Shown piece by piece: positions 34,110 to 64,000 of a stretch of 64,000 nucleotides of DNA (its first letter is position 1; every line of letters starts with the position of its first letter). Made by a program: the position numbers and the translations under genes. Below the pieces are notes generated by a model. That model was given only the letters and a program-made list of their open reading frames with translations. It made no database searches and had not been told where the DNA came from. The stretch spans positions 1-64,000 of the IMG/VR virus record IMGVR_UViG_3300031857_007934; one strand, given 5' to 3'. This stretch comes from a virus.

Positions 34110-34220
34110 ATGAAAATTAAAATAGAAATAGAAATAGACACAGACCAAGATCGTGACCTTAATGTAATTGAGGAAATTATCGCGGCGCTGAGAAATTTAG
34201 CAGATAAAATGAAACTATGA
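34110..34220 (+). CDS. Small acidic/basic peptide after DNA polymerase (36 residues)
   Basis: A 36-residue ORF starts 1 nt after the polymerase stop and overlaps the next ATG by ATGA. The product, beginning MKIKIEIEIDTD and ending LADKMKL, is a beta strand plus a helix. I recall similar tiny ORFs in marine T4-like phages. No function is known; coupling of the downstream sugar cassette to gene 43 is likely. Confidence 0.5.
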   Translation: MKIKIEIEIDTDQDRDLNVIEEIIAALRNLADKMKL

Positions 34221-35346: not shown

Positions 35347-36092
35347 ACATCACAATAGCAGGATACGGATTTGTTGGTAAGTCTCATGTTGAATTAATGA
35401 AGCAACATTTTACTATCAATATAGTAGATCCTAAAATTAGTACTGATAAAATTAAAGACAATCCCACTGATGCCGTTATTATATGTGTTAATACACCTCA
35501 GCATCCTTCAGGTGCTTGCAACATAAACAATGTATATGAAGTTATTACAGATACACCTAAAGATATACCAATTCTAATACGCAGTACTATTAGTTTAGAA
35601 GGTTGGCTTTATCTTAAAGAAACATTTTCAGAACGTAGCTTAACATATAGTCCAGAATTTCTTAGAGCAGAAACTGCTGAAAGAGATTTTAGAAATACAC
35701 AGTATATGTACTATGCAGGAGATGATATTACATTTTGGGAAGCTACCTTTAGAAAAGTATTTCCTAAGGTAATTTCAGTTCATATGCAGCCTGAAGAGTT
35801 AATACTTGTAAAATATTTTAGAAATGCATTTCTAGCCACCAAGGTAAGTTTCTTTAATCAAGTTTATGACCTATGCCAAGCATTCGGAGTTAATTATAAA
35901 AATGTTGCTGCTGGTGTGGGTCAAGATCTAAGGATTGGTGCTAGTCACACTGATGTTACTTCTGCAAGAGGTTGGGGAGGACATTGTTTTCCTAAAGACA
36001 CTGCTGCTTTACTGCACACCGCAGAACTAGAAGGTGTTGAGTTAAGTGTTATGCAAGAAGCAATAAACTATAATAATAAAATAAGAAAATAA
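35343..36092 (+). CDS. Shortened UDP-glucose/GDP-mannose dehydrogenase-like enzyme
   Basis: The 249-residue protein has the N-terminal NAD fold (TIAGYGFVGKSH), ICVNTPQ, the SPEFLRAETA motif and the catalytic Cys215 in WGGHCFPKD. Typical family members have about 390-430 residues; the C-terminal UDP-sugar-binding domain is missing. Activity therefore needs another partner or a different substrate, or the enzyme has changed function. It has ATGA overlap with the PMM-like gene. Confidence 0.8.
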   Translation: MNITIAGYGFVGKSHVELMKQHFTINIVDPKISTDKIKDNPTDAVIICVNTPQHPSGACNINNVYEVITDTPKDIPILIRSTISLEGWLYLKETFSERSLTYSPEFLRAETAERDFRNTQYMYYAGDDITFWEATFRKVFPKVISVHMQPEELILVKYFRNAFLATKVSFFNQVYDLCQAFGVNYKNVAAGVGQDLRIGASHTDVTSARGWGGHCFPKDTAALLHTAELEGVELSVMQEAINYNNKIRK

Positions 36093-36093
36093 T

Positions 36094-36846
36094 ATGCGTA
36101 TATTGTTAACAGGCCATAAAGGATTTGTTGGCTCAAGACTAAAAGAAGTCTTGGAAAAAGATCATGTAGTATATGGCATTGATCTAGCAGACGGCAAAGA
36201 TATCAATACCTGTAGTTTAGACTACGAAGTTGATCTAGTAATACATCTAGCAGGAAAGAGCGGCGTTCGTCAAAGCCTTAAGAATCCTAGTGCATATTGG
36301 TATAACAACGTAGAAGGTAGTAGACGAATCTTTGAAGTATTTAAGAATACTAGAATTATCTATGCTAGTTCTAGTTCTGCGTATGAACCCGAACGTAACC
36401 CGTATGCCGCAACAAAATTATTAGTTGAATATATAGGTGCCAAACATTCTAATTCATTAGGAATTAGACTACACACTGTATACAGCGACACACCCCGTAA
36501 AGACATGTTTTTTGACAAACTACTAAATGGAGGATTAGAATATGCAACTAAGCATTATAGAGATTTTATTCATTTGGAAGATGTTTGTTCTGCTTTCCTA
36601 TACCTTATTGAAAATACTGACTTAAAAGGTGTTGTAGATGTTGGAACTGGCACTAGTATCTATATCCCTAGCATCGCACCAAATCTTAAAATTAAAGAAT
36701 ATACACCCCACGAAAGAACACACACTCAGGCAGATATAAAATTTTTAACCAGTTTAGGCTTCAAACCTAAATACACCGTAGAAAACTTCTTGACAAATAA
36801 AGGCATAGACGTTAAACTACAATATATTACAGGAGAAAACCCATGA
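36094..36846 (+). CDS. NAD-dependent sugar epimerase/dehydratase (short SDR)
   Basis: The 250-residue protein has the Rossmann GHKGFVGS motif, IHLAGKSGVRQS, IYASSSSAY, and the catalytic YxxxK as YAATK (Tyr104, Lys108). It is shorter than usual (about 310-340), with a reduced C-terminal substrate domain. It would act on a nucleotide sugar. Nearest context: UDP-sugar dehydrogenase upstream, sliding clamp downstream. Confidence 0.82.
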   Translation: MRILLTGHKGFVGSRLKEVLEKDHVVYGIDLADGKDINTCSLDYEVDLVIHLAGKSGVRQSLKNPSAYWYNNVEGSRRIFEVFKNTRIIYASSSSAYEPERNPYAATKLLVEYIGAKHSNSLGIRLHTVYSDTPRKDMFFDKLLNGGLEYATKHYRDFIHLEDVCSAFLYLIENTDLKGVVDVGTGTSIYIPSIAPNLKIKEYTPHERTHTQADIKFLTSLGFKPKYTVENFLTNKGIDVKLQYITGENP

Positions 36847-37586
36847 AAGACATTTTACAAGACATCGTAGCTCATACACATTCACTAGGCTTCTTATCCC
36901 TAGTTAAGGTTACTAGCGAAAATGGCGCAACTACTATTGACGCAATGGCAGAAGATCGTTCCGTTATTCTTACATCGTCAACACACAAGGCAGTAACTGA
37001 ATTTACAGGTACGTTTGGTATGCCTAACCTAGACAAGCTAGCACTTCACTTAAAGAATCCGGAGTACAAGGATAATGCAAAGATTGAAGTTGTTAGTGCG
37101 GATAGGAACGGTGAAACTATTCCTACGCATATTCACTTTGAAAATGCAACAGGCGACTTTGAAAACGACTATCGTTTTATGAACAAGGCAATTATTGAAG
37201 AAAAGCTCAAGACTGTTAAGTTCAAAGGTGCTAGCTGGGATGTTCAATTTAAGCCATCAATGGCAGCTATTCAGCGTATGAAGCTAATGAGTACAGCACA
37301 CTCTGAAGAGCCAATCTTTACAGTTAAGACTGAAGTAACAGGCGGAGTAACTGATCTAGTATTCTACTTTGGTGATGCTAGCACACATGCTGGTAAGTTT
37401 GTATTCCAAAACAACGTATCGGGTAGTTTGAAGCATGCATGGAGTTGGCCAGTAAGTCAAATGCAGGCTATTTTAAATTTAGACGGTGAGTCAACTGTAA
37501 GCATTTCAGACCAAGGTGCTATGATGATTTCCGTAGATAGCGGATTGGCCAAGTACGATTACATCCTTCCAGCACAGAGCAAATAA
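36843..37586 (+). CDS. 45: DNA polymerase sliding clamp (T4 gp45)
   Basis: The 247-residue protein corresponds to gp45-type clamps (T4: 228) in length and in segments such as FKGASWDVQFKPSMAAIQRM and SVSISDQGAMMISVDSG. It forms a ring tethering gp43 to DNA, and in T4 it also activates late transcription. Identification rests on overall pattern and its replication-gene context. It is separated from gene 43 by the sugar cassette and overlaps dpdA by one base. Confidence 0.85.
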   Translation: MKDILQDIVAHTHSLGFLSLVKVTSENGATTIDAMAEDRSVILTSSTHKAVTEFTGTFGMPNLDKLALHLKNPEYKDNAKIEVVSADRNGETIPTHIHFENATGDFENDYRFMNKAIIEEKLKTVKFKGASWDVQFKPSMAAIQRMKLMSTAHSEEPIFTVKTEVTGGVTDLVFYFGDASTHAGKFVFQNNVSGSLKHAWSWPVSQMQAILNLDGESTVSISDQGAMMISVDSGLAKYDYILPAQSK

Positions 37587-39145
37587 TGAATAAAGACTTA
37601 ACAGCGACACAAAACGATTACGCACACTTTTTACCAGCACTAAGTGGTTTCTATGCGACTTATGTGGGCAAGCAACGTTTTCCTGATCCTGTTAAAGGTC
37701 CTTACATTGAAGATGCTCGTATTCCTGCTAACTTCCAACACGGTGTAGAAAGTCTAAACTATCTTAATGCACAAGAAGGAGCGTTTACTTACAAGTGGAC
37801 GCTTTACTCTGCAGGACATGCTGATTTAGATACAACTAAGATTGTGCCTAAAGAAGACATGGTTCGTAATAGAGATAGACAGAACACTTGGTTGCTGGGT
37901 GACTCAGGCGGCTTCCAGATTGGTAAGGGTGTTTGGGAAGGTGATTGGAAAGATCCTAATTGCCCTAAGGCTCAAAAGAAACGAGATGGTGTATTGCGTT
38001 GGATGGACGCTTATATGGACTATGGCATGGTACTTGATATCCCAGCCTGGGTTGCTCGTTCACCTGAAGGCGCAAAGGCTACTGGTATCAGCACTTATCA
38101 AGAAGCCGTTAAAGCAACACGCATTAATAATGACTATTGGTTAAAGCATCGTACAGGAGCATGTAAGTTCTTAAATGTTCTGCAAGGTGAAAATCACACT
38201 GATGCAGAAGATTGGTATCAGCAGATGAAAGATTACTGCGACCCTAACATCTATCCTGACAATCACTTTAATGGGTGGAGTATGGGTGGACAGAACATGT
38301 GTGATGTACACTTAGTACTCAAACGTATTGTTGCTCTGCACTATGACGGCTTGTTACAAAGCGGTGTACATGATGTAATGCATTTCTTGGGCACTAGTAA
38401 ATTAGAGTGGGCATGTTTGCTTACAGACTTACAACGTGCTATTCGCAAGTATTATAATCCTACTATGATGCTGACGTTTGACTGTGCTAGCCCGTTCTTA
38501 GCAACTGCTAATGGACAGATTTACATTCAAAATGAAACACCTGATAGAGGCAAGTGGACCTATCGAATGGTTCCAAGCATTGACCATAAAAAGTATGCAA
38601 CCGATACTAGAACTTTTAAACAAGCAGTATTGCAAGACGGTATCTTCAAGAACTTTGAAGACAGTCCAATTACATCAGAAATGAAAGTATCTGATGTATG
38701 CATTTATAAACCAGGCGATTTGAATAAGATTGGCAAGGAAGGGCGCACCAGTTGGGATAGTTTTAGTTATGCTATTCAGATGGGTCATAATGTATGGAGT
38801 CACATCAATGCTGTGCAAGAAGCAAATAGACAGTATGATGCAGGTGTTGTTCCAAACATGTTGGTACAAGAAAAGTTTGATAGACTGTTCTTTAGAGATG
38901 TTGTAGAAGAAATATTTTCAAAGACAACTCGAGAAGAATCATTAGAAGTAATTGAAAAGTATTCAAAGTTTTGGATTGCTATTCCCGGTACTCGCGGTGC
39001 AATTGGAAAGAAAACTGTGAACTCTAGTACATACTTCGATGCGCTGTTTGAAGTAGAGCAAACGACAGAGCAAGAACTAGAAGCAGGTGAGTTTACGGAA
39101 GAACAAGAACATAAACTGGAGGAGTTGGAGGATGAACAACTTTGA
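37586..39145 (+). CDS. dpdA: DpdA-like DNA-guanine transglycosylase
   Basis: The 519-residue protein belongs to the tRNA-guanine transglycosylase superfamily. LLGDSGGFQIGKG carries Asp106, matching the proton-acceptor Asp of TGT. GWSMGGQ matches the substrate-binding loop. TFDCASPF carries Asp299, matching the TGT nucleophile. The tRNA-type C-terminal zinc site is not evident. DpdA enzymes exchange guanine in DNA for preQ0 or derivatives, which protects phage DNA from restriction. FolE, QueE and a QueD-like gene lie within 8 kb, supporting this role. Confidence 0.85.
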   Translation: MNKDLTATQNDYAHFLPALSGFYATYVGKQRFPDPVKGPYIEDARIPANFQHGVESLNYLNAQEGAFTYKWTLYSAGHADLDTTKIVPKEDMVRNRDRQNTWLLGDSGGFQIGKGVWEGDWKDPNCPKAQKKRDGVLRWMDAYMDYGMVLDIPAWVARSPEGAKATGISTYQEAVKATRINNDYWLKHRTGACKFLNVLQGENHTDAEDWYQQMKDYCDPNIYPDNHFNGWSMGGQNMCDVHLVLKRIVALHYDGLLQSGVHDVMHFLGTSKLEWACLLTDLQRAIRKYYNPTMMLTFDCASPFLATANGQIYIQNETPDRGKWTYRMVPSIDHKKYATDTRTFKQAVLQDGIFKNFEDSPITSEMKVSDVCIYKPGDLNKIGKEGRTSWDSFSYAIQMGHNVWSHINAVQEANRQYDAGVVPNMLVQEKFDRLFFRDVVEEIFSKTTREESLEVIEKYSKFWIAIPGTRGAIGKKTVNSSTYFDALFEVEQTTEQELEAGEFTEEQEHKLEELEDEQL

Positions 39146-50073: not shown

Positions 50074-51162
50074 ATGGCACATTCAGACGTAATTCGTACA
50101 GTTAGCCCAAACAAGGCTAAGGCAAGTATCAAACACGCTATCGCTAAGAAGCGTCCAATCTTCCTGTGGGGTCCTCCAGGTATTGGTAAGTCAGATATCG
50201 TTCACCAGATTGCAGACAGCATTGATGCTCATGTCATTGATGTACGTTTGAGCCTTTGGGAACCCACTGACATTAAGGGCATTCCGTATTTTGATAGCAA
50301 TGCTAACAAAATGGTTTGGGCGCCTCCTATGGAACTTCCAGATGAGGAACTAGCATCCAAACACGAAGCTATCGTTCTATTTTTGGACGAAATGAACTCA
50401 GCGGCTCCTGCTGTACAGGCAGCTGCCTATCAGCTGATCCTCAACCGCAAGGTTGGTACTTATCGCCTGCCAGACAACGTATTCATTGTTGCCGCTGGTA
50501 ACCGTGAAGCAGACAAGGGTGTTACTTATCGTATGCCTGCTCCACTGGCTAACCGTTTTGTTCACTTGGAAATGGCTGTCAGTTTTGAAGACTGGTTCCA
50601 GTGGGCAGTTGAAAACAAGATTCACAAGGACGTAGTAGGTTACTTGCAATTTGCAAAGCAGGACCTTTACGACTTTGATCCAAAGTCAGCAAGCCGTTCA
50701 TTTGCTACTCCTCGTTCTTGGAGTTTTGTTAGCGAGCTGTTGGAAGACGATTTGGAACACAGCACTATCACTGATCTAGTTAGTGGCTCCGTCGGTGAAG
50801 GTCTTGCTGTTAAGTTTATGGCTCACCGCAAGGTTGCTGGCAATATGCCTAATCCAACTGACATTTTGGATGGTAAGGTAAAAGAGCTGAAGGCTAAAGA
50901 AATCAGTGCCATGTATTCCTTGACTATTTCGCTCTGCTACGAACTTAAAGAAGCAAGTGACAAGGGCGACAAGAAGTTTGACGAAAAGGTTCATAACTTC
51001 CTGCGTTTTGCAATGGACAATTTTGAAACTGAATTGGTTGTAATGGGCATTAAGGTTGCTCTTACCCAATACAATCTTCCAATTGATCCGGATGCTGTAC
51101 CTTGCTTTGATGAGTTCCATGATCGATTTGGTAAGTATATTAAGGCAGCACAGTCTGCGTAA
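50074..51162 (+). CDS. MoxR-type AAA+ ATPase
   Basis: The 362-residue protein has Walker A WGPPGIGKSD (33-41), Walker B VLFLDEMNSA (Asp105, Glu106) and an AAGNREADKG sensor-1 loop, typical of MoxR/RavA-like AAA+ proteins. MoxR ATPases usually act with a VWA-domain partner, and the next gene is one. They commonly drive metal insertion or conformational maturation of a target. Codon use is richer in GC than in neighbouring genes. It has its own promoter and terminator. Confidence 0.88.
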   Translation: MAHSDVIRTVSPNKAKASIKHAIAKKRPIFLWGPPGIGKSDIVHQIADSIDAHVIDVRLSLWEPTDIKGIPYFDSNANKMVWAPPMELPDEELASKHEAIVLFLDEMNSAAPAVQAAAYQLILNRKVGTYRLPDNVFIVAAGNREADKGVTYRMPAPLANRFVHLEMAVSFEDWFQWAVENKIHKDVVGYLQFAKQDLYDFDPKSASRSFATPRSWSFVSELLEDDLEHSTITDLVSGSVGEGLAVKFMAHRKVAGNMPNPTDILDGKVKELKAKEISAMYSLTISLCYELKEASDKGDKKFDEKVHNFLRFAMDNFETELVVMGIKVALTQYNLPIDPDAVPCFDEFHDRFGKYIKAAQSA

Positions 51163-54045: not shown

Positions 54046-55770
54046 ATGGCCTTACGTCTCAGACGCGGAACTAATGCACAAAGATTACTAATTACGCCCA
54101 CAGAAGGCGAGCTTGTCTATACTACAGATACTAAACGTTTGTGGGTAGGTGACGGTAGCACTGTTGGCGGTATTGTAGTAAACTCTGGCATAGCTCAATC
54201 TCTTAATGATCTGTTAGACGTAGATCTTACACTTCCTGCGCTAACAGGACAAATACTAAAATTTAACGGTACAGCGTTTGTAGCAGCAGATGAAGGTGCT
54301 TTTACACCTGGTGGTGATTATCACATTGATATTACTAATGCAACTGATCAAATTGTTGTTGACTCAGTAACATCAAACTTTTATGGTACGCTTAATGGTA
54401 ATGTAATTGGTAACGTTACAGGTGATACAGACGGCACGCACATTGGAGATGTAGAAGCTACAGATAGTACAGTTTTAGTAAATTCTACTACAAAAACTCT
54501 TTCTACAGGTATATTAGACATTTCCGGATTTACTGTTAACAGTACTTCTGCAGCATTAGTATTCAAACACGATAACCCAGCAGTAACTCTAAACTTTATA
54601 CGAACAGCGCCTGACGGTGGATTCTCTGCTATTACAACGGGTATAAGCCAAGGATTTTTAGGACCAGGTGAAAGTTTTAGAGCGTCTCGCGGGACACTAG
54701 CTGCACCAACTAATCTTACAGTTGGTGATGCAATTAAAATTGATGTTGCTCTAGGCTACGACGGCGTATCAGTTGATGGTGAGGGCGATCCTGTATATAC
54801 ACTTTCAAGTGCTATTAGACACAGTGTAGATTATAATGTGTCAGTTGCTGCAGGAGAAATTCCAGGTAGCATACAGCTATTAACATTTGCAGATAGCAAT
54901 ACTAGTGCATATAAAGGTCTAATAATAGACTCTAGAGGATTTACTGCTATTAATCAACCTTTAGAGTTTTTTGCTAGAGCTGCTCTAGATGTTAATGGTA
55001 GTGCAGTGTTTGACGGCGAAGTTGAAGCTTCTGCATTTAAAGGATCATTCTTTGGTGATGATTCTACAGTACTAGTTGATGGTGTAAACTCGATCTTAAG
55101 AACATCAACGATGTCTTTTAGTAACAGTATTATCGAATCATCTATTCCAATTAGAATACAAAATACAGATCCAACAAGAACTACTCAAATTATAAGACTA
55201 TGCCCAGACGGTGATTTTGTTAATATCACTAACGGTATTACTCAAGGGTTCTTTGGCCCAGGCGAAACATTTAGATCATCACGTGGAACACTTAGTGCTC
55301 CTACAGCAATTCAAGTTGGTGATACAATTAAGATTGATGCTGCACTAGGTTACGACGGCATATCACTTACCGGTGAAGGCACTGCAAGTTACACGCTATC
55401 CAGCATCATTCTACGCAGTGTTGATCCTAATGCCGTAGTTGACGAAGGAGAAGTACCTGGAAGTATTTCTTTATTAACATTTACTGACGGTAATCCTTTA
55501 AATCCTAAAGGCGTTAATATTGATTCTCGAGGTTATACTTCAATTAATCACACACTAGGTTATGAAGCAGAAGCAACTCTTGACATCAACGGATTTGCCA
55601 AACTAGCAGTGTTAAGTGCTGCACCAGCAACACCAGTCAACGGTATGGTAGCTATTGCTGACGGTGACTCTGTAAGCGGATGGGATCCATTAGGCATTGG
55701 TGCTCCAGCTAAACAGCAGATGGTAGTTTATCTAGGCGGTGGTTGGAGACAAATGGCTGTTGAGCCTTAA
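54046..55770 (+). CDS. Tail fibre protein with internal duplication
   Basis: The 574-residue protein starts with RLRRGTNAQRLLITPTEGEL and a KRLWVGDGSTVGG motif, the N-terminal module of many phage fibres and receptor-binding proteins. Residues about 185-325 are repeated at about 383-523 (GFLGPGESFRASRGTL versus GFFGPGETFRSSRGTL; KIDVALGYDGVS versus KIDAALGYDGIS). The end contains VVYLGGGWRQMAVEP. It has a late-type promoter and hairpin. The stop codon lies in the palindrome GCCTTAATTAAGGC (55764-55777). Confidence 0.8.
   Translation: MALRLRRGTNAQRLLITPTEGELVYTTDTKRLWVGDGSTVGGIVVNSGIAQSLNDLLDVDLTLPALTGQILKFNGTAFVAADEGAFTPGGDYHIDITNATDQIVVDSVTSNFYGTLNGNVIGNVTGDTDGTHIGDVEATDSTVLVNSTTKTLSTGILDISGFTVNSTSAALVFKHDNPAVTLNFIRTAPDGGFSAITTGISQGFLGPGESFRASRGTLAAPTNLTVGDAIKIDVALGYDGVSVDGEGDPVYTLSSAIRHSVDYNVSVAAGEIPGSIQLLTFADSNTSAYKGLIIDSRGFTAINQPLEFFARAALDVNGSAVFDGEVEASAFKGSFFGDDSTVLVDGVNSILRTSTMSFSNSIIESSIPIRIQNTDPTRTTQIIRLCPDGDFVNITNGITQGFFGPGETFRSSRGTLSAPTAIQVGDTIKIDAALGYDGISLTGEGTASYTLSSIILRSVDPNAVVDEGEVPGSISLLTFTDGNPLNPKGVNIDSRGYTSINHTLGYEAEATLDINGFAKLAVLSAAPATPVNGMVAIADGDSVSGWDPLGIGAPAKQQMVVYLGGGWRQMAVEP
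54598..55610 (+). repeat. Internal duplication in the tail fibre gene
   Basis: Two copies of about 420 nt (54598-55020 and 55192-55610) are offset by 594 nt and encode about 140 residues each. Many residues are identical between copies, but the DNA has diverged, so the duplication is not recent. Confidence 0.75.
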
Positions 55771-55807: not shown

Positions 55808-56371
55808 ATGGAAACATTTAAAGATTTTTACAAATACAGTAGTGACGGATATCCCGGCACTCCTAACGATGTTTATAAAGCCGAGTATAACAGTACTTCA
55901 TATTCTATGACATTCTTTGAGGAATTTTGGTTCCGCAGAGAATTATACGGATTAGATTTAATTGCAGGCAAAGATTACGCTCCTGAAATAGAATCAGTTG
56001 ACGAAGGCAACAGAAAAATAACTTTCAAATGGTATGACAGTAGTTTGAGCCATTTACTGTTTTTTGGTAGAGAGATGCCTAGCGATTGGGTACAGCAATT
56101 AAAATCCTTACTACAGGATCTAGAAAGTAATAATCTTTATAAACTAAATTTTTATCCGCATACAGTGTATGTTAAGGATAACAAATTAAAGATCCACGAT
56201 CTCTATGGCTGTTGCAAAGGCGACGAAAAGATTCCTCTCACTACAGTTAATGATGTAATTAGAAACTGGGATAGGTTCAAATTTACTGACGGATACCTAG
56301 ACATAGTAACAAGTTACAGACGTTCTATAGACAGCAATGCTGGCGATTGGCCTATTTCGCTGAATGCTTAA
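55808..56371 (+). CDS. Kinase-like-fold protein, unknown function (paralogue of 59690)
   Basis: The 187-residue protein has DWVQQLKSLLQDLESNNLYK, then NFYPHTVYVKDNKLKIHDL. The latter resembles the catalytic-loop and metal-binding part of small-molecule kinases (H...N...ikiiD), with changed residues, so it may be inactive or divergent. The gene at 59690 shares this block. It starts 5 nt after a TAAATA motif (55797-55802) with no clear ribosome site. It is the first gene of the post-fibre island. Confidence 0.45.
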   Translation: METFKDFYKYSSDGYPGTPNDVYKAEYNSTSYSMTFFEEFWFRRELYGLDLIAGKDYAPEIESVDEGNRKITFKWYDSSLSHLLFFGREMPSDWVQQLKSLLQDLESNNLYKLNFYPHTVYVKDNKLKIHDLYGCCKGDEKIPLTTVNDVIRNWDRFKFTDGYLDIVTSYRRSIDSNAGDWPISLNA

Positions 56372-56912
56372 ATTTATAGGTAATTGCAATCACATTATCA
56401 ATTGGAACGAAGTAATAGAGGCAGTTGATAATAGTATGCCTGGTTACTTAGGACCTAGACACGATGTAGGTTATGCAGTAGAGGGTGTAGAAGAAGTAGC
56501 TAGACCGCTAAGGAATGCTGGATATAAAATGAAGGCAGAAGGCGGCAATGCTAGCTGGGAAATGCATTTCCCAGGAAGACAATTTCCCCAAGAAGTAGTA
56601 GAAAAGTTTATGGACTTTATTGGCATGGACAGTTATATAAACTGCTGGATCAGTAAAGTACTACCGGGAGATGTAGCTCCCTGGCACTGGGACATCACTG
56701 ATGATGAAAATACTCTTAATGCTAAAGGTACAATTAGAAGATTTCATTGTCATATTGATATTCCAAGACCCGGACACATTGTAATAGTAGAAAATACCTG
56801 TCTTTACAACGAAGCACAAGGTAATGTCTATGAATGGCCTGACAGGAAAAGTTGGCATGCTGGGGCCAACGCAGGACTTACTCCAAAGTATCTTTTTAAT
56901 ATTTGGGGTTAA
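56364..56912 (+). CDS. Putative 2OG/Fe(II) oxygenase (Asp-hydroxylase-like)
   Basis: The 182-residue protein has PGDVAPWHWDITDDENTL with an HxD pair, an FHCHIDIPRPGHIVIVEN strand pair, and SWHAGANAGLTPKYLFNIW. The last includes a distal His and a basic residue in place of the 2OG-binding Arg. The layout matches the cupin-fold oxygenases. The substrate is unknown. The stop codon overlaps that of the convergent minus-strand gene (TTAA). Confidence 0.6.
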   Translation: MLKFIGNCNHIINWNEVIEAVDNSMPGYLGPRHDVGYAVEGVEEVARPLRNAGYKMKAEGGNASWEMHFPGRQFPQEVVEKFMDFIGMDSYINCWISKVLPGDVAPWHWDITDDENTLNAKGTIRRFHCHIDIPRPGHIVIVENTCLYNEAQGNVYEWPDRKSWHAGANAGLTPKYLFNIWG

Positions 56913-57724
56913 TAGTGAGTTAGGTGATCAATACCTAACTTCTTCTTTAAATCTAAACTAAATTTACAATCAATACGCAGTCCGTATTCAACTTCTTTAG
57001 ACTCTTCGCCGCCATGCCAATCTTGATCATTCCAAAAAGATGCATGGCAATTTAGATAGTGTTTATTCTGACTGTCTGGATCCCATATATAGAACCCTCT
57101 TTTAGTTCTATAGCGTATATGGATGAATTCATTGTTATGAGGTGTATACTGATTATTAGTATGTATACCATTTTTAGCATCTAAATCTCTATGTTCAAAT
57201 GCTTTACCGTTATGATCACAGTGAAAAAATATAACGCGACCTATACGATCAATTATACCTTGTTCCTGTAACCCTTCAACCCACTTAACTACACCTGGAA
57301 AGAATTTACTCTCTTCAGTACGTTGACGTTCAGCATTACGCTCATTCCAGTCGCCTTCATTCCAAAGAAAATAATAGATATAAGGGTCATTAGCACCTAA
57401 CGTGCTTTTTAAGTAACGTGTAAACAAATTACGCTGTTTATAATCTTTAAAATCATTAGGAAATATTTCATTGCCATGTATTTTAATAGGATCGGTATCA
57501 GGCAATTTTTGATATTCTTCAAATGCTTTGTAAATAGGTTTCCAATCTACAATATAGCTACAGTCTTTGGGGTCAAATCCTGGCTGCATCCAAGTTCCTT
57601 CTTTAGCATAGTCTCTAGCTTGTGCAAAGCCTTTGCAAATTTCAGGATGAAGTTGTTTAAATCCTTCTATGTCAATATAAGGATCTAGACTTACGTACGG
57701 TTTGTTATTAATTCCTCTAATCAT
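56909..57724 (-). CDS. Putative 2OG/Fe(II) oxygenase-like protein, minus strand
   Basis: The 271-residue protein has FFHCDHNGKAFEHRDLDAKN (HxD as EHRD), then RYRTKRGFYIWDPDSQNK. A later DWHGGEESKEVEYGLRIDCKF supplies a distal His and Arg. The spacing suits a double-stranded beta helix, but identification is tentative. It is transcribed against its neighbours. A TAAATA motif on its own strand (57730-57735) lies 5 nt before the ATG. Confidence 0.5.
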   Translation of the reverse strand: MIRGINNKPYVSLDPYIDIEGFKQLHPEICKGFAQARDYAKEGTWMQPGFDPKDCSYIVDWKPIYKAFEEYQKLPDTDPIKIHGNEIFPNDFKDYKQRNLFTRYLKSTLGANDPYIYYFLWNEGDWNERNAERQRTEESKFFPGVVKWVEGLQEQGIIDRIGRVIFFHCDHNGKAFEHRDLDAKNGIHTNNQYTPHNNEFIHIRYRTKRGFYIWDPDSQNKHYLNCHASFWNDQDWHGGEESKEVEYGLRIDCKFSLDLKKKLGIDHLTHY

Positions 57725-57766
57725 GAAAATATTTATGCCTACAATTTTAAAGGTAAATATTTCATG
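57722..57766. promoter_or_regulatory. Divergent pair of late-like motifs in a short inverted repeat
   Basis: The 39-bp gap between divergent genes has TAAATA on each strand (minus 57730-57735, plus 57754-57759), each 4-5 nt from its start codon. The flanks form an imperfect inverted repeat (CATGAAAATATTTA versus TAAATATTTCATG). It looks like a bidirectional promoter giving near-leaderless mRNAs. Confidence 0.45.
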
Positions 57767-58420
57767 TTTGAAGGTAGAGAATATTTTTTAAGTAATGCCA
57801 AATATCTAAAATTAAATTTAGATTTTCCTCACGAACTTATTGCACAAGAAGCTAGTGCTTTAAGATCTAAGTTTGTTGAATATAGATCAACATATAAAAC
57901 AAAAGGATGGTATTCATTACCTATTATAGGTAAGAGCAGCGAAGAACCATACGCATGGGATCAATACAAAGAGTTTAATACAGCTAGAGATGCCGCACCA
58001 TATATGCAGTATACAGACATAGCTGAGAAATGTCCAGTAACTGTTGAATGGCTTAAGAACGTTTATCCTAGCTCTAGTTATGCTAGGGTTAGATTTATGT
58101 TACTAGAACCAGGTGGTTATATAGAACCACATAAAGACACAGAATATCCAGTACTAGGTGCTATAAACATAGCAATAACAAACCCTCAAAATTGTAAATG
58201 GTATTGGGAGGATGGAGAATCGTTAGAATTTAAACCGGGTGATGCTTATGCTATGAACATTAGCTATACCCATTCTATTAAAAATGACAGTAACGAAGAT
58301 CGATATCATCTTATAGTACATCATTATGATTCTACGCCTAAATGGAAAAATTTATTTGAGTTAGCAATAAAGGAACAAAATGCACAAGGTCAATTTTCTT
58401 ATAGTACCGAGCTTTTCTAG
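57764..58420 (+). CDS. Aspartyl/asparaginyl beta-hydroxylase-like oxygenase
   Basis: The 218-residue protein has EPGGYIEPHKDTEYPVLGA with the HxD iron site and FKPGDAYAMNISYTHSIKND with the distal His. NEDRYHLIVHHYDS follows, with the 2OG-binding Arg, as in the Asp/Asn beta-hydroxylase family. It hydroxylates a protein or small substrate, which is unknown. It overlaps the next gene by 41 bases. Confidence 0.75.
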   Translation: MFEGREYFLSNAKYLKLNLDFPHELIAQEASALRSKFVEYRSTYKTKGWYSLPIIGKSSEEPYAWDQYKEFNTARDAAPYMQYTDIAEKCPVTVEWLKNVYPSSSYARVRFMLLEPGGYIEPHKDTEYPVLGAINIAITNPQNCKWYWEDGESLEFKPGDAYAMNISYTHSIKNDSNEDRYHLIVHHYDSTPKWKNLFELAIKEQNAQGQFSYSTELF

Positions 58421-59681
58421 TGATGATTGGTTGGATGAAAAGATGCTTCAGATTACGCAAGCATTTATCGATATTCTCAACATAGGCGAATATCCTGTCC
58501 ACACATTATCATCCTATAATGAAATAAACGATTATTTAACTTCAGCAGAGTTTCTTGTAGTAGCGTCTGCAGGTACTGTGATAGTAGAAAGAGATCACAT
58601 CTATAACAAGATGCATTCTATACCAGAGACTGTAGGTTTAATTGCAAACTTACTTCAATATGATTATGATACTACCCCGTACTTTCACGAACAATTTTTT
58701 ATATTGAGAACTGCTGCATTTAAAAAATTAGAATTTAATGGTGGCAAGGATCAAGGATTCAATTTAATTCGCAGTTACGAAGACATGCACGATGGTCATG
58801 CTCCGCTGTACATAACATTAGGCGGAAAGACTGTAAACAGAGATTTAAAATTTGGAACACGAGTTATCGAAGAATGTCTTAAAAATAATTTTGAGGTACG
58901 TAATTGGGATCAAGAATGGCGCTATCCTAAAACAGCTAATGATTACTTAAAAGATGTTGTACTACCTAGTAGAGGTTTTCTGTATCCAAAAAAGAGTACT
59001 GAAGCATTTGCAGAAGCACTTAAAAAAATAGAACTAGTAGAAGGGTTAGACGACTCTCAAGAACTGTTTATTAAAATAATACAACAGGTTTTAAAATTTA
59101 ATGTCCTTAACGGATGGCAATATGAATTTGCTCCGTCAGTGCCAGCAAAAAAAGTAATTTGTCCTGCTACAGGTTTTCTTGGAGAGCTGTGTGCAGTAAA
59201 TTCTGGAGCTAAAAATATTGTGTTGTATGATAAGAACTTACATAATTTAAACTTTAAGAAAAAACTATACACAGAATGGGACGGCAACGACTACGATTCG
59301 TTCATGCAGGATTATGCTAAAACTTGTAACTTACCAATTGAACCTACGTTTGACATTGATATAAAAAATTCGGTTGATACTAGAGATCTTGTTAGAGAAA
59401 AAATTCTTGCTAATTGGAAAGAATTTAAACAGTCTGTTACTGTTGAATTTATCGAATGTGATATTATAAAAGATTTTAGCAAACTTGAAACTCATTTTGA
59501 AGAAAATACACTATTAGGTACAAGCACAATTTTAACTGTGTATCCATTTACACATGTAATATATTCAAAAGAAGAAATTATTTCAACTAGAGAAAAAATT
59601 CAAAGACTACTTGATTCTACAAATAGTGTGTGGTTTGAAATGCCTTTCAATCTAAATCGTTCTAATAATCTAGTAGCATAA
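58380..59681 (+). CDS. Large island protein with possible SAM-methyltransferase-like C-terminal domain
   Basis: The 433-residue protein has an N-terminal region with VNFLIVPSFSSDDWLDEKML. From about residue 260 it has a Rossmann-like segment (VICPATGFLGELCAVNSG, then NIVLYDKNLHNLNFKKKLY) that resembles a methyltransferase motif I and II. The family cannot be named. It starts inside the hydroxylase gene behind an AAAGGA site. It may act on the product of the neighbouring oxygenase. Confidence 0.4.
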   Translation: MHKVNFLIVPSFSSDDWLDEKMLQITQAFIDILNIGEYPVHTLSSYNEINDYLTSAEFLVVASAGTVIVERDHIYNKMHSIPETVGLIANLLQYDYDTTPYFHEQFFILRTAAFKKLEFNGGKDQGFNLIRSYEDMHDGHAPLYITLGGKTVNRDLKFGTRVIEECLKNNFEVRNWDQEWRYPKTANDYLKDVVLPSRGFLYPKKSTEAFAEALKKIELVEGLDDSQELFIKIIQQVLKFNVLNGWQYEFAPSVPAKKVICPATGFLGELCAVNSGAKNIVLYDKNLHNLNFKKKLYTEWDGNDYDSFMQDYAKTCNLPIEPTFDIDIKNSVDTRDLVREKILANWKEFKQSVTVEFIECDIIKDFSKLETHFEENTLLGTSTILTVYPFTHVIYSKEEIISTREKIQRLLDSTNSVWFEMPFNLNRSNNLVA

Positions 59682-59689
59682 TTACTATT

Positions 59690-60385
59690 ATGAACACAGA
59701 ATTTGAATACTACTACAACAATGTTCCTGGTAAAGGACTTTGTAGAAACAACTTAATTTATACTAGTCTTATCAGTAAAGATAAGAAAACATTTGTACAA
59801 TGGTATCATAACGACACAGATTACCATAAAGGTCAGAATCAGGTAATTGATCCTGAACTTATGGAGGAAAAATGGGAAAGAGAAGTTAAATTTTTAACAG
59901 TGATGAACAATTCATTTCCAATGCATATTCCTCAAATACTAGATATAGACTATGTTCAAAAAAAGATTTATTTAAACATTGACGGATCTGATTTTTGGGA
60001 GCAAGCAGGTTGCCTTACAGAAAATTACTCTAAGGTATTGCCAAACTGGGAAGAACAAATGTTAGAAATTATTCAAGCCCATAAGTCTCTAAACTTATAC
60101 AAGTATTCAATGCATCCTAGCAGTTACTTTATAGTAGATGGTAAACTTAAAAGTATTAATTATTTCTTTACCTATCATCACAATGAAGGATTTATAAGTA
60201 TAGAGAAACATCAAAGTCATCTAAGTGAAGACAGAAAGGCCAATCTAAAACAAACAGTAGAGTCTTTAGGAATGAATTGGACTGCTCCGGCGCCGTTAAA
60301 TCAGCTAGAAAAACTTTGCTGGATGAGTTTTAGAACAAATTACCCGGACAACTTTGTTAGTAGAGTAAACGAATGTATAAAATAG
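59690..60385 (+). CDS. Kinase-like-fold protein, unknown function (paralogue of 55808)
   Basis: The 231-residue protein contains NWEEQMLEIIQAHKSLNLYK, then MHPSSYFIVDGKLKSINYF. This block aligns with the one at 55808. An N-terminal segment has KTFVQWYHNDTDYH and FPMHIPQILDIDY, which could form the kinase-like N-lobe. Catalytic residues are not clearly conserved. I recall this type in marine phages without function. Confidence 0.45.
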   Translation: MNTEFEYYYNNVPGKGLCRNNLIYTSLISKDKKTFVQWYHNDTDYHKGQNQVIDPELMEEKWEREVKFLTVMNNSFPMHIPQILDIDYVQKKIYLNIDGSDFWEQAGCLTENYSKVLPNWEEQMLEIIQAHKSLNLYKYSMHPSSYFIVDGKLKSINYFFTYHHNEGFISIEKHQSHLSEDRKANLKQTVESLGMNWTAPAPLNQLEKLCWMSFRTNYPDNFVSRVNECIK

Positions 60386-60924
60386 TTCCTTGGACTAAAG
60401 ACTTAGATCTAGATGAATTTTATACAAAAGCTGCTGCCAAAGGTTTTGAAAATAATGCTTCTCAAAAACTACTAGTTGATTGTTTTAAAAAAGAAAGAGA
60501 ATGGCAGGTATGGATACTCTACTATAATAACAAACCTGTAGGCAGTGTTGCAGCACACTCTTTTGACGAAATGGGAGAAAACTGCTATCGTATAGCTGCT
60601 AGGACTTGTGCATTCAGTGATGAAATTCCAGTAACCTCTCTTAGGACAGTTAACCAAATAATTACACATCAGCATGTTACTAGTCAGTTTTTAATTCCTA
60701 CCTGTATAGACTGGGCTCCTAAAGGTAGTAAGTTGTTTATAACTTCTAACGAAAATTCTGCAGGCACACAACGCCTAGTGCATAGAATATTTGGTCCTGC
60801 TATGGAAAAATCAGGACAAATGAAAAAAATAAAAGAGATATTCTATCGAGGAACTCAACAAACAGTATGGGAGTTATTTCCTGATAAGTTTTATGCTGAG
60901 CTTAACAAGTACCCAAGATGGTAG
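60373..60924 (+). CDS. GNAT-like acyltransferase candidate
   Basis: The 183-residue protein has WQVWILYYNNKPVGSVAAHS, resembling the central GNAT strand pair, and CYRIAARTCAFSDEIPV after it. The acetyl-CoA-binding loop is not typical, so the assignment is weak. It overlaps the previous gene by 13 bases, and its 3' end overlaps the convergent gene by 23 bases. Confidence 0.4.
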   Translation: MYKIVPWTKDLDLDEFYTKAAAKGFENNASQKLLVDCFKKEREWQVWILYYNNKPVGSVAAHSFDEMGENCYRIAARTCAFSDEIPVTSLRTVNQIITHQHVTSQFLIPTCIDWAPKGSKLFITSNENSAGTQRLVHRIFGPAMEKSGQMKKIKEIFYRGTQQTVWELFPDKFYAELNKYPRW

Positions 60925-61621
60925 TTAAAAATTCAGTTCCGCAAACTTCTAACAATTCATTAATCCTATCTACAGCAAGATCAAGCTGTACACCATTAGA
61001 AGTAATTTGAAAATTATCAATATCTCCATTTTTAGATGCTCTATTGAGCCACGGGCTTAGTGTTTGATCAAATCTGTATCTAGTGTCAAAACTTTTCTTT
61101 GTAGGAGTTATCTGAATTGATACTAAATCCTTTGTTGAACGATTTAAAAGTTTTCTAACTACTAACTGTACTCGCGGTTTATCTCCAAAATTAGCAGCAG
61201 AATGTAATCTGCCAGCATCCATTAAATACCATGTCATATCATTGTCAGTTTTGTGCAGCATATTTGTATCTAAATCTACAAGAAAACTATAAGTTCCGCA
61301 GATATTTAAGTGCCACCTATCATCAATGTCTGCGTGGCCAAAATAGTTTTTTCCAGAATCTAAAACTAAGAGTCTAGCTTCACCTTTAGGATATGGTAGT
61401 GTTTCTAATATTTCATTCCATATCGTATTTTTAAATTCTGGTTTAATTTCCCACGGATCATAAAAGAAATTACCCGTAGGAGTGTTAATGGTAAATTTTT
61501 CATCAATTGATTTTGGATCTATTGATGTACGATCCATTAATTCTTTTGGAACTGTATAACCTGTTTTAGTTAGCATCATATATTTATTATCTGCGCAGTT
61601 TATGTCGATAAATACTTGCAT
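60902..61621 (-). CDS. Asp/Asn beta-hydroxylase-like oxygenase, minus strand
   Basis: The 239-residue protein has KNYFGHADIDDRWHLNICG with the HxD iron site and YLMDAGRLHSAANFGDKPRV with distal His and Arg, followed by QLVVRKLL. This fits the Asp/Asn hydroxylase type. An AGAAGGA site lies before its start, inside the opposite gene. Its ATG overlaps that of the divergent plus-strand gene at 61620. Confidence 0.65.
   Translation of the reverse strand: MQVFIDINCADNKYMMLTKTGYTVPKELMDRTSIDPKSIDEKFTINTPTGNFFYDPWEIKPEFKNTIWNEILETLPYPKGEARLLVLDSGKNYFGHADIDDRWHLNICGTYSFLVDLDTNMLHKTDNDMTWYLMDAGRLHSAANFGDKPRVQLVVRKLLNRSTKDLVSIQITPTKKSFDTRYRFDQTLSPWLNRASKNGDIDNFQITSNGVQLDLAVDRINELLEVCGTEFLTTILGTC
61609..61616 (+). 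promoter_or_regulatory. TAAATACT late-promoter-like motif
   Basis: An exact TAAATACT lies 3 nt before the ATG at 61620. As a late -10 element it would start transcription at the start codon. It overlaps the first codons of the minus-strand gene. Confidence 0.4.
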
Positions 61622-62345
61622 GAATATTCCTTCTGTTAAATATGACGACGTAATCTTGCCTATTGATCCTAATTGGTCACGGATAGGAATAAGTTTAAGC
61701 GGTGGGGCAGATAGTGCCTTATTAGCTTATTTAATATGTATGAACACTAGTGCAGATATTCATATCATTACACAGATTCGTTGTTGGAAAACAAGACCCT
61801 GGCAAAGACAAAACAGTTTAGATGTGTATAATTGGCTTCAAAATAGATTTAAAAATCGTTTTTTTAGGCACGAAGGTTTTATACCTCCAGAACTAGAGTG
61901 GGGATCTACTGGTCCTAATATTGTTGACGAATACGGAAAATTAAAATCTGGTAATCAAATAATTCTTAGAGCTCATAACGAATATATTGCTCATAGAGAA
62001 CAACTAGATGCTTGGTTTGCTGCTGTTAATCTTAACCCCGATATTGAAATTGACGGATCTCTAGACGACAGAGATGAGGGTCATATAGATCCTATTATAC
62101 AACACATGGGAGTTACTGTATGTCATCCCTTTATTCATACAAGAAAAAATTGGATAATAAATCAGTATTTTAAAAATAACATAACAGACTTATTAAACTT
62201 GACTAGAAGCTGTGAAGGCGATAAAATAAACTATCCTGAAACTTTTGGTGACTTAGATTATAAAACTTATGTTTCAGGACAGTATGTTCCTGTTTGCGGA
62301 AAATGTTTCTGGTGTAAAGAAAGGGAGTGGGCTCTTGGAAAATAA
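61620..62345 (+). CDS. PP-loop ATPase (QueC / Asn-synthase-like)
   Basis: The 241-residue protein has the PP-loop motif ISLSGGADSALLAYL (SGGADS at residues 27-32). It ends with LTRSCEG and then CGKCFWCKEREWALG, resembling the QueC zinc site (CxxCxxC plus an upstream Cys). QueC turns CDG into preQ0, the missing step of the phage 7-deazaguanine pathway. However, the protein is divergent and lies 14 kb away beside oxygenases and radical SAM genes. It may instead adenylate another substrate. Confidence 0.65.
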   Translation: MNIPSVKYDDVILPIDPNWSRIGISLSGGADSALLAYLICMNTSADIHIITQIRCWKTRPWQRQNSLDVYNWLQNRFKNRFFRHEGFIPPELEWGSTGPNIVDEYGKLKSGNQIILRAHNEYIAHREQLDAWFAAVNLNPDIEIDGSLDDRDEGHIDPIIQHMGVTVCHPFIHTRKNWIINQYFKNNITDLLNLTRSCEGDKINYPETFGDLDYKTYVSGQYVPVCGKCFWCKEREWALGK

Positions 62346-63600
62346 ATCATGTACCTTCTGTATGCATCCTTTTACAGGACTTGCTACTAGAGAAGACGGA
62401 GCAATAAAAGTCTGTTGTCGTAGTCAACCTATAGGGTGGATTCAAAAAGAAAGTTTAGAAGAAGCGTGGAACAACAGTGAAATGCGCAAAGTTCGCCAAC
62501 AGGTTCTAAATAATGAAAGACCAGAAGTATGTAAACCCTGTTTTGATTTAGAAGATCAGGGCGTTGAAAGTTTAAGACAAAGACACATTAATGGAGTTAT
62601 TCCAGAAGCTAGAATTAATCTTTATCCTAATGCATTAGAAAATCTGTTAGAAGATTTTTCAATGCCTTTTGAATTTCCTACAATGGAAATTAAATTAAAC
62701 AATCTTTGCAATTTAAAATGCCGTATGTGCAATCCTCTAGATAGTACTAGTTGGAAAGATTGGGACCAAGTTACAGAATTTTATAAAAAAGAAAACAATT
62801 ATCTTATACCTACTATTGAAAAATTAGTTGATGTACCTGGTCAGTATATAGGACCCTTTGACAATAGCGATAACTGGTGGAATAGTTTTGAAAAGTTATT
62901 ACCGTACTTTCGTAGGGTAGAATTTGCTGGCGGCGAACCTCTAATGGATCCTTATCATTATAAAATATTAGATATGCTTGCACCTTATGGTTCTAATATT
63001 GAATTAAAATATGCTACTAATGGTACGACCTTAGGAATTAAGGGAGGAAGAACTATACATGATTATTGGCCGAAGTTTAAATCAATAGCTGTAAATGTAA
63101 GTATTGATGGTATACATGATGTTTATGAATACATAAGAGGTAATGGTAAGTTTTCCGAAATAGAAGAAAATGTTAAAGTGTTTAAGTCATTTCCTAACGT
63201 AAGCCGAGTAGTAGGAGCATTTACTGTACAGGCTAATAACATAATGCAGATAGATAAAGTTATAGACTACTTTATAAATGAAATGGGTATTGTGTTTTAT
63301 TCACATCGTGTAAACTATCCTAGAGCACTATCTGCTCAGACATTGCCAAGTGTATTAAAAGAACAAGTAATAGAAAAGTTAGAAGTTATGAAAACAAAAA
63401 TACTAGACTATCCTTTAGTGCAAAAACATGCTCTTCTTAAAACTGTAACACTACAACAAATACAAGATAATATTAATTTCCTTAAGGCTAACGATTTAAG
63501 TAGATTTTGGCCTGACTGTGTTGAATTTAATCGGCAACTAGATAAAACTAGAAATCAAAACTTTCTTACAACCAACCCAGAGTTTATAAATTATGTATAA
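62335..63600 (+). CDS. Twitch-domain radical SAM protein
   Basis: The 421-residue protein starts at TTG, 7 nt after GGGAG, inside the PP-loop gene. The N-terminal region has CTFCMHP, VCCRSQ and VCKPC (Cys6, 9, 27, 28, 66, 69), likely auxiliary Fe-S ligands. The radical SAM site NLCNLKCRMCNP holds Cys125, 129 and 132, and EFAGGEPLMD is the GGE motif. This layout matches N-terminal twitch radical SAM proteins as I recall. Such enzymes often modify peptides or sugars. Confidence 0.8.
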   Translation: MENKSCTFCMHPFTGLATREDGAIKVCCRSQPIGWIQKESLEEAWNNSEMRKVRQQVLNNERPEVCKPCFDLEDQGVESLRQRHINGVIPEARINLYPNALENLLEDFSMPFEFPTMEIKLNNLCNLKCRMCNPLDSTSWKDWDQVTEFYKKENNYLIPTIEKLVDVPGQYIGPFDNSDNWWNSFEKLLPYFRRVEFAGGEPLMDPYHYKILDMLAPYGSNIELKYATNGTTLGIKGGRTIHDYWPKFKSIAVNVSIDGIHDVYEYIRGNGKFSEIEENVKVFKSFPNVSRVVGAFTVQANNIMQIDKVIDYFINEMGIVFYSHRVNYPRALSAQTLPSVLKEQVIEKLEVMKTKILDYPLVQKHALLKTVTLQQIQDNINFLKANDLSRFWPDCVEFNRQLDKTRNQNFLTTNPEFINYV

Positions 63601-64000
63601 GATAACTAGTCGTTGGCCTCATCAAGAGTCTGTAAAGATTGAATGGAATCTTGGTAAACGTTGTAACTTTGATTGCGGATATTGTCCTGCTGAAATTCAT
63701 GACAACATAAGCCCGCACACAGATATAGCTATTTTAAAGAATACTGTAGACAAATTAACGGAAATTAATAAGCCAATTAGAATCAGCTTTACTGGTGGTG
63801 AACCGTGTGTTCATCCGGATATTGAAGAATTGTTAGCGTATGCTAAAGAACATGCTAGTTGGATCAATGTAACTACTAACGCTACTAGAACACCTGAATG
63901 GTACGCTAAACAACCTGTAAGTCATTATGTGTTTAGTTTACACTACGATAATGAACATTGGGAACGGTGTGCTATGACTATACTGTTGTTTTCTCAGTTG
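63593..64000 (+). CDS. Second radical SAM protein (3' end outside window)
   Basis: An ATG overlapping the end of the previous gene opens a frame that runs to the window edge without a stop (136 residues seen). LGKRCNFDCGYCPAEIH has the CxxxCxxC cluster motif (Cys24, 28, 31), and ISFTGGEPCVHPD the GGE motif. It is probably co-translated with the twitch enzyme. The C-terminal domain, which would hint at substrate, is not in the window. Confidence 0.8.
   Translation, partial: MYKITSRWPHQESVKIEWNLGKRCNFDCGYCPAEIHDNISPHTDIAILKNTVDKLTEINKPIRISFTGGEPCVHPDIEELLAYAKEHASWINVTTNATRTPEWYAKQPVSHYVFSLHYDNEHWERCAMTILLFSQL

Follow-up and report, generated by a model that had tools for sequence, protein, structure and literature searches.

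The 64,000-nucleotide stretch of viral DNA analysed here (the window) comprises positions 1-64,000 of the 156,456-base record IMGVR_UViG_3300031857_007934, whose numbering is used for all plain coordinates, and it ends inside an island of enzyme genes that begins directly behind a tail-fibre-like gene. Homologues of these genes, which the initial annotation of 55808-64000 had proposed to belong together, co-occur in related phage loci in a largely conserved layout. These observations support a recurrent multi-enzyme core within a variable locus. The core would comprise a Cpz10-like hydroxylase, a QueC/Cap9-like ligase, two radical S-adenosylmethionine (SAM) enzymes opposite a further pair encoded on the other strand, and a methyltransferase-like protein, and around it would stand oxygenases, additional radical SAM enzymes and transferase-like proteins in a varying assortment. 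The reading we favour, tentatively, is that a conserved pathway core and swappable tailoring enzymes decorate a sugar-containing surface molecule.

Recurrence and layout of the core

Genes are named by their first coordinate. A second record of 357,559 bases shows 99.5-99.9% identity to the 156,456-base record across 21 kb, and the latter is probably a piece of a larger genome. Viral sequences were scanned with three anchors, and the loci interpreted are the best 80 of 308 stretches for 62269 (the main anchor), of at least 547 for 61602 and of 419 for 56909. The 80 loci of 62269, in which this protein showed 76-100% identity, fell into 46 groups when the gene was clustered at 95% DNA identity, 45 after removal of the record's own group. 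Assignments are best BLAST hits to the record's own proteins, and a gene absent from a locus may mean that the contig ended. The three sets of loci share records and are not independent, and their counts are raw, not set against random viral contigs.

Among the 45 groups, homologues of 63593 were present in all 45, those of 65459 in 43 and the PP-loop gene 61602 in 40; 60902, 66868 and 70180 were each represented in 38, and 56364, 64464 and 69204 in 33. Less regular were homologues of 59690 (28 groups), 56909 (26), 71237 (23), 55808 (17), 60373 (15), 57764 and 67473 (9 each), 58380 and 68659 (5 each) and 84911 (3). The 63593-like gene lay at most two genes downstream of the 62269-like gene in 45 of 45 groups, the PP-loop gene directly upstream of it on the same strand in 33 of 45; in 43 of 45, the opposing strand carried a 65459-like gene no more than seven genes away from it. 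The counter-case raised by the initial annotation, that homologues never co-occur, does not hold. With the PP-loop gene as anchor, 62269- and 63593-like genes were each found in all 43 groups, 65459-like genes in 41 and 60902-like genes in 40; the very next gene was 62269-like in 26 only. The 47 groups anchored on 56909 contained homologues of 59690 (44), 56364 (42), 60373 and 60902 (38 each), 61602 (34) and 62269 (33). A viral scan with 57764 as query returned the near-identical 357,559-base record only, and a wide N-twitch alignment was tried as a query and dropped as too variable.

Nonsynonymous divergence (pN) was lower than synonymous divergence (pS) in all pairs run, with synonymous sites near saturation. 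The pairs were chosen ones, five for 62269, seven for 61602, six each for 60902 and 56909, and five for 59690. Values were pN 0.12-0.15 and pS 0.72-0.79 for 62269, and pN 0.35-0.40 and pS 0.68-0.81 for 60902, the loosest. Family alignments A6-A11 used 32 of 34, 20 of 21, 29 of 44, 7 of 7, 29 of 33 and 26 of 42 references, A11 with both window proteins in addition, after near-copies and locus L013 had been removed.

Enzymes of the core

The main anchor, 62269 (62269-63600, plus strand), is an N-twitch radical SAM enzyme by its match to NF033640 (326.5 bits against a cut-off of 170, E = 2.4e-97), and it carries a Pfam Radical_SAM domain (5.4e-9) plus an N-terminal SPASM. Both its CxxxCxxC motif (C147, C151 and C154) and the auxiliary-cluster cysteines C31, C49, C88 and C91 are conserved. 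The following core gene, 63593 (plus strand, 63593-64000 in the window and continuing to 64483 of the record), encodes a second radical SAM enzyme (PF04055, 3.7e-11), so that both proteins of this kind named in the initial annotation stand. The whole record has 13 matches to NF033640, seven of them above the cut-off and the remaining six being Radical_SAM in Pfam; two of these 13 genes lie within the window. Thirteen PF04055 matches were also counted in the near-identical longer record, and 6-15 radical SAM matches per record in twenty related records chosen from the 80 loci, one of which is the near-identical record and some of which are near-duplicates of each other. In a Pfam scan of 10 of the 13 proteins (76822, 79087 and 83520 being outside the scan), no peptide-binding domain of the RRE (RiPP recognition element; RiPP, ribosomally synthesized and post-translationally modified peptide) or PqqD type was found.

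Three side observations concern this family. In the radical SAM protein at G000:C1 78107-79105, the SPASM-like segment is N-terminal, whereas it is C-terminal in paralogues including 63593 and 80400, as if circularly permuted. The 120-residue protein at G001:C1 266369 has, from its cysteine pattern, what we take to be the look of an A-type iron-sulfur carrier, and it is a possible source of clusters for the radical SAM enzymes. Vibrio phage K566 has three annotated radical SAM genes clustered at 161548-165950, a possible model for the family.

The PP-loop ATPase recognized by the initial annotation, 61602 (61602-62345, plus strand), is a core gene and a putative amide-forming ligase. It matches phrog_1550 (E = 7.5e-6), and its predicted model (pLDDT 92.5) has QueC (Z 14.5) and Cap9 (Z 13.7) as nearest folds, Z values within 1 counting as tied. 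Across 30 sequences, SGGADS and the cysteines C204, C232, C235 and C238 are invariant. The PP-loop fold, the SGGxDS motif and the C-terminal cysteine cluster are shared with the QueC/Cap9/QatC family (PF06508); one orthologue, together with its neighbouring matches, scored above the cut-off of that profile, and 61602 itself gave no match. A PDB sequence search with 61602 returned chance matches only, and one with its profile none. Canonical QueC proteins, in the accessible text of one report, have a C(x)8CxxCxxC zinc motif and the motifs YxQxHxxE, VPxRN and YPDC (PMC13329287). The cysteine spacing in 61602 is C-x27-CxxCxxC instead, and the three substrate motifs were not seen in its family consensus, as judged by eye; the two differences rule out 61602 as a canonical QueC. 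The same text describes QueC relatives that join carboxylates to ammonia or to protein N-termini, one of them a lipopolysaccharide (LPS) N-sugar amidotransferase (PMC13329287), and because of these couplings we read 61602 as a putative amide-forming ligase. This protein and 62269 overlap by 77 bases; the gene overlap pointed out in the initial annotation is thus present, and it is probably a start-site effect, because some homologues align only from residues 20-27.

The third core gene in the window, 60902 (60902-61621, minus strand), encodes a predicted Fe(II)/2-oxoglutarate (2OG) hydroxylase related to Cpz10. Its family profile matches the Cpz10 structure (PDB 7v4f) at E = 1.3e-14, and all four residues of the HxD...H...R ligand set (two His, one Asp, one Arg) align. 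Cpz10 is described as a beta-hydroxylase acting on aminoacyl-glycyluridine in caprazamycin synthesis, in the part of the source available (PMC9814697); a nucleoside substrate would not follow from this for the phage protein. Outside the window, 66868 gave a weak Methyltransf_25 match (0.0047) and weak PHROGs matches of unknown function, and its one phage relative is annotated 'putative methyltransferase'.

Further proteins in the window

Four Fe(II)/2OG oxygenases had been proposed in the initial annotation. Three are supported, 60902 by its relation to Cpz10, 57764 by its family and 56909 by its fold, and for 56364 there is the motif only. Protein 57764 (57764-58420, plus strand) belongs to the Asp/Asn beta-hydroxylase (AspH) family (PF05118, Asp_Arg_Hydrox; E = 1.6e-14, 54.5 bits, cut-off 22.6), and its H123, D125, H170 and R180 are invariant across 8 sequences. 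Protein 56909 (56909-57724, minus strand) matches no family. Its AlphaFold2 model (pLDDT 84.4) reached Z 11.0 to a 2OG-Fe(II) oxygenase and 10.9 to Cpz10 and PHD2, and comparisons with 2OG oxygenases, PHD2, Cpz10 and AspH gave Z of about 10-11; H178, D180, H237 and R250 are invariant across 21 aligned sequences. The model and these residues suggest a double-stranded beta-helix 2OG oxygenase with a presumed HxD...H triad and 2OG-binding Arg. Structure prediction, which had been recommended as a check, thus gave a 2OG-oxygenase fold for 56909 and a QueC fold for 61602. Protein 56364 (56364-56912, plus strand) is a putative Fe(II)/2OG oxygenase with an HxD...H motif (H108, D110 and H165) invariant across 30 sequences; it had no Pfam, AspH-profile or PDB match, and its gene is present in multiple copies in some relatives. 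The HxD...H ligands of 56364, 57764 (H123/D125/H170) and 60902 (H96/D98/H140) are each kept in at least 95% of aligned homologues. The loss of iron or cluster ligands, which would have spoken against the enzymatic assignments, is not seen in the radical SAM proteins, nor in at least three of the four oxygenases. Profile-profile comparison gave kinship probabilities of 62 for 60902 with 57764, 15 for 56909 with 57764, 3 for 60902 with 56364 and 0.2 for 56364 with 57764; among these four comparisons, only the first appears to support kinship.

Two paralogous kinase-like proteins had also been proposed, 55808 (55808-56371, plus strand), which is kinase-fold-like, and 59690 (59690-60385, plus strand), which is pseudokinase-like. 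Their paralogy (E = 2.6e-4) and resemblance to kinases are confirmed, the joint family profile matching the protein kinase TTK at 5.3e-5. The catalytic Asp of the HRD motif was found in 0 of 28 aligned sequences, its place having been set by eye against the TTK loop; an Asp is kept at the DFG place in 9 of 28, 55808 among them. The pair is probably without standard kinase activity, judging from these alignments. Two other assignments are unconfirmed. The possible N-acetyltransferase 60373 (60373-60924, plus strand), first described as GNAT-like, stays below the PF00583 cut-off (E 0.13, 13 bits against 20.7), and 58380 (58380-59681, plus strand), first taken as Rossmann/methyltransferase-like, has no Pfam, PHROGs or NCBIfam match. 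The open reading frames (ORFs) themselves all exist at the positions given in the initial annotation.

Extent, borders and relatives of the island

Genes of the island kind extend past the window to about 85.8 kb and are followed, up to about 89 kb, by genes that we take to be glycosyltransferase-like. The island thus measures about 30 kb in all, of which 55808-64000 covers about one quarter. Its G+C content is 0.326 (55808-88904), against 0.385 in 1-55770 and 0.372 in 90-140 kb. Between called ORFs in 55771-89262 the largest gap is at most 45 bases; each ORF was taken to begin at its first start codon, and the count could miss a precursor peptide gene that lies inside or overlaps an ORF. Because no larger gap exists, a RiPP reading is lowered. 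Strand switching is real inside the window, but its description as unlike the rest of the genome needs correction, as beyond 64.5 kb, to about 126 kb, minus-strand genes predominate.

The left border is the tail-fibre-like protein 54046 (54046-55770, plus strand), so named for the resemblance of its N-terminus to those of fibre proteins; it has no PHROGs match, and the fibre, tail and baseplate labels throughout this record are presumptive in the same way. A protein cluster with an N-terminus like that of 54046 was found in 12 of 46 group representatives, possibly including the record's own group, and homologues of 54046 itself in 11 of the 47 loci obtained with 56909 and in 3 of the 43 obtained with 61602. 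One contig of 108 kb, assigned to a Gammaproteobacteria metagenome-assembled genome (MAG), is homologous to both flanks with gene order preserved, and at the same place it carries an island with other contents. Among the 45 groups, a left-flank homologue was reached in 13 and a right-flank homologue in one, the other loci ending earlier or lacking the flank, so that the fixed place of the island is seen for part of the relatives only. Homologues of the record's flanking proteins also occur on contigs of the Gammaproteobacteria MED685 MAG (L101 and L177-L181, G021:C3) and the Rickettsiales MED657 MAG (L123 and L132, G022), and because of these homologues we read the contigs as phage contigs that were probably binned into bacterial MAGs. 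The AAA ATPase at 50074-51162 has 53% identity to proteins of PA5oct-group jumbo phages; being one gene and not a phylogeny, it may give a hint at the kinship of the phage.

Among cellular relatives (76 loci kept), the best match, at 35%, was on a phage contig in a MAG; Bdellovibrionia MAGs came next at 32-33%, followed by many other groups. A 917-kb Bdellovibrionia contig (L182-L184, G024:C1 735-795 kb) has 13 N-twitch genes above the cut-off within 29 kb, and two AspH-family proteins were found among the 19 neighbours of this array that were scanned, of 34 listed.

In a collection of 50,697 phage records, 62269 found 17 Vibrio phage records at 22-26% identity, 65459 three (23-25%), 66868 one and 57764 one over 44% of its length; 56364 and 61602 found none. 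Close relatives are lacking in this collection.

Proposed pathway and alternatives

Gene content, ligands, co-occurrence and layout are observed, as is the position in some relatives; all substrates, the order of the steps, the carrier and the purpose we infer as follows. The island would be a hypervariable locus between the fibre-like gene and genes taken for tail or baseplate genes. The precursor would be a sugar nucleotide, possibly a uronic acid, which would come either from the dehydrogenase and epimerase of the phage or from the host. The PP-loop ligase would activate the carboxylate of this precursor to form an amide, the radical SAM enzymes would then alter unreactive carbons, the 2OG enzymes would hydroxylate, and the methyl- and acyl-transferase-like proteins would complete the unit. 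The unit would be attached to a surface polymer, most likely of the host envelope, where it would bar adsorption by other phages.

A sugar-containing surface molecule is favoured for two reasons: some relatives have sugar-nucleotide genes in company with the core, and comparable known islands are interpreted alike in the accessible text of one report (PMC7029224). The phage itself has a sugar-nucleotide module (34217-36846, plus strand) of a nucleotidylyltransferase, a HAD-like phosphatase, a UDP-glucose dehydrogenase-like protein and an epimerase (PF01370, 3.7e-24), the phosphatase being our presumption. The nucleotidylyltransferase has 79% identity to proteins of Vibrio phages that carry the annotation glycerol-3-phosphate cytidylyltransferase or heptose enzyme. 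The module is linked to the island indirectly: the 45 related loci contain seven ORFs that resemble its dehydrogenase and seven that resemble its epimerase. PF01370 was above cut-off in 15 of 21 records, not always in the island; the record's own epimerase is outside it. Among ten neighbour proteins taken from related loci were an epimerase, two UDP-glucose/GDP-mannose dehydrogenases, a sulfotransferase (below cut-off), two further radical SAM proteins and two proteins without a match. In one related phage island (33 proteins scanned of 50 listed), a carbamoyltransferase, a GDP-mannose dehydratase, an aminotransferase, a FkbM methyltransferase and a nucleotide-diphospho-sugar transferase were found once each, together with two TauD-type oxygenases. 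The homologue of 84911 in locus L122 matched Glyco_tranf_2_3 at 1.3e-3, below cut-off.

Several results weigh against a sugar-containing product. A distance of 19 kb separates the phage's own sugar module from the island, and homologues of the module occur in a minority of loci. Family-2 glycosyltransferases (PF00535) were above cut-off in 0 of 21 records, the control being positive in 14 of 14 genomes; PF03407 matched in one of seven records, with no control matching. The glycosyltransferase names that we had presumed for 67473/74399 and 87209/88047 found no Pfam or PDB support. The class III aminotransferase and tryptophan halogenase among the ten neighbour proteins would fit amino-acid or nucleoside chemistry equally well, as would the Cpz10 match of 60902. 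In named bacterial isolates, the context of N-twitch genes has no clear sugar theme, with glycosyltransferase 2 in 4 and epimerase in 2 of 82 neighbour proteins (82 of 154 listed were scanned, and 80 of 131 in a second set). Because there are no recognised glycosyltransferases, and because of the Cpz10 and halogenase matches, two alternatives stay close behind.

The better placed of these, which we still hold to be unlikely, is post-translational modification of a fibre or adhesin of the virion itself by the island enzymes, 2OG hydroxylation and radical changes tuning receptor binding. The island adjoins the fibre-like gene, with fibre-like homologues adjacent in part of the relatives; the AspH-family (57764) and PHD-like (56909) folds act on proteins in known cases; and a tryptophan halogenase is present in one relative. 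Against this stand the sugar-nucleotide genes, which both this genome and relatives contain, and the result of the RRE/PqqD scan, and the core may be more conserved than would be expected for a variable fibre substrate.

We regard with still more doubt the view that the product of the island is a small diffusible molecule, derived for instance from a nucleoside or an amino acid, that acts on the host or on competitors. The relation of 60902 to an enzyme of the caprazamycin pathway, the halogenase and aminotransferase in relatives and the Bdellovibrionia arrays of N-twitch genes are all in keeping with it. However, Cpz10 is one branch of AspH-like enzymes, so that its substrate is not implied, and genes for an exporter, for resistance or for a carrier protein did not come to notice, though no search was aimed at them. 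Phages, moreover, seldom produce secondary metabolites.

That there is no single pathway, and that the locus is a gene-acquisition hotspot gathering unrelated auxiliary genes, seems improbable. The low G+C of the island and a variable accessory content of many families fit such a hotspot, but the core recurs with adjacency and convergent layout over 45 non-redundant loci, and again from two other anchors, whose record sets overlap.

Two genes outside the island may touch on deazaguanine chemistry. A 519-residue protein with a DSGGFQ motif at 37586-39145 of the window, 32% identical to proteins from PA5oct and other Pseudomonas jumbo phages, is what we take to be a DpdA/TGT-like protein; PF01702 and PDB gave no match to it. 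In the near-identical longer record, a QueD/PTPS homologue is encoded at G001:C1 269893-270234 (E = 3.1e-13), about 80 kb from the island core, beside a protein that presumably is another 2OG oxygenase. A Tet_JBP (TET/JBP) profile was without match, as was its control, and is uninformative. That 61602 and some of the radical SAM enzymes serve 7-deazaguanine chemistry for phage DNA modification, as the resemblance to QueC and these two genes might suggest, is most improbable, given the absence of canonical QueC motifs, the lack of any PF01702 match in the record (at E 0.1, with a positive control), the distance of the QueD gene and the position of all nine listed PF04055 matches, of 13 in the longer record, within the island.

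Relation to known systems

The closest published parallel to the proposed surface-decorating pathway is the host recognition cluster (HRC) of pelagimyophages. As far as the accessible text of that report goes, it is a hypervariable island beside fibre genes, bordered by VrlC and gp14 and holding LPS-type genes; two such genomes differ by radical SAM cassettes, and the islands are viewed as altering the host O-chain (PMC7029224). Like the HRC, the present island is variable at a fixed place, with other contents at the same place in a related phage contig. It differs by the number of its radical SAM genes (13), by a ligase/radical SAM core that recurs, and by the PA5oct-like ATPase, a single gene. 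A location in the structural region beside fibre genes may be shared as well, with fibre and tail names that are presumptive on our side. Recognisable glycosyltransferases are a further mark of the HRC; of these, PF00535 was above cut-off in none of the 21 records.

The cultured Pelagibacter phage Mosig EXVC030M (MT647606.1, 54701-72519) likewise has a two-stranded island between fibre and VrlC genes. Annotated in it are AspH-type and TauD-type oxygenases, an N-acetyltransferase, three MoaA-like proteins, an epimerase, an ArnB-type aminotransferase and a carbamoyltransferase, and its methyltransferase is 27.8% identical to 66868. Its three annotated MoaA-like genes contrast with the 13 radical SAM genes here, the hypothetical proteins of Mosig being outside this comparison, and Mosig was absent from the phage-collection matches of 61602 (E 1e-3) and 62269 (E 1e-5). 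The T4-like metagenomic genome TARA_ERS488813_N000010 has a similar number of radical SAM genes, 12, which the consulted portion of its report presents under iron-sulfur metabolism and not as a tailoring island (PMC5332604), and some marine viromes hold radical SAM and glycosyltransferase genes, according to the available part of another (PMC7150976). The initial annotation knew of no phage system with this set of genes. Such islands and a genome rich in radical SAM genes are thus known, but in the accessible text of the open PMC literature we found no description of the ligase/radical SAM core or its order, nor of a multi-step pathway of this kind in a virus.

Implications

We put forward, as a possibility held with some reserve, that large phages encode a dedicated multi-step pathway whose core assembles a new unit with an amide group, be it a sugar, a nucleoside or an amino acid, and that decorations swapped between phages mark the surface of the host or the virion with a chemical identity tag. 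Radical SAM and 2OG enzymes perform demanding chemistry. Many viral contigs carry relatives of these genes (at least 547 stretches for the ligase, 308 for 62269 and 419 for 56909), and in the loci sampled they keep the same company. This recurrent company points to a common molecule in the contests between phages and their hosts, and it marks out the genes by which that molecule could be traced.

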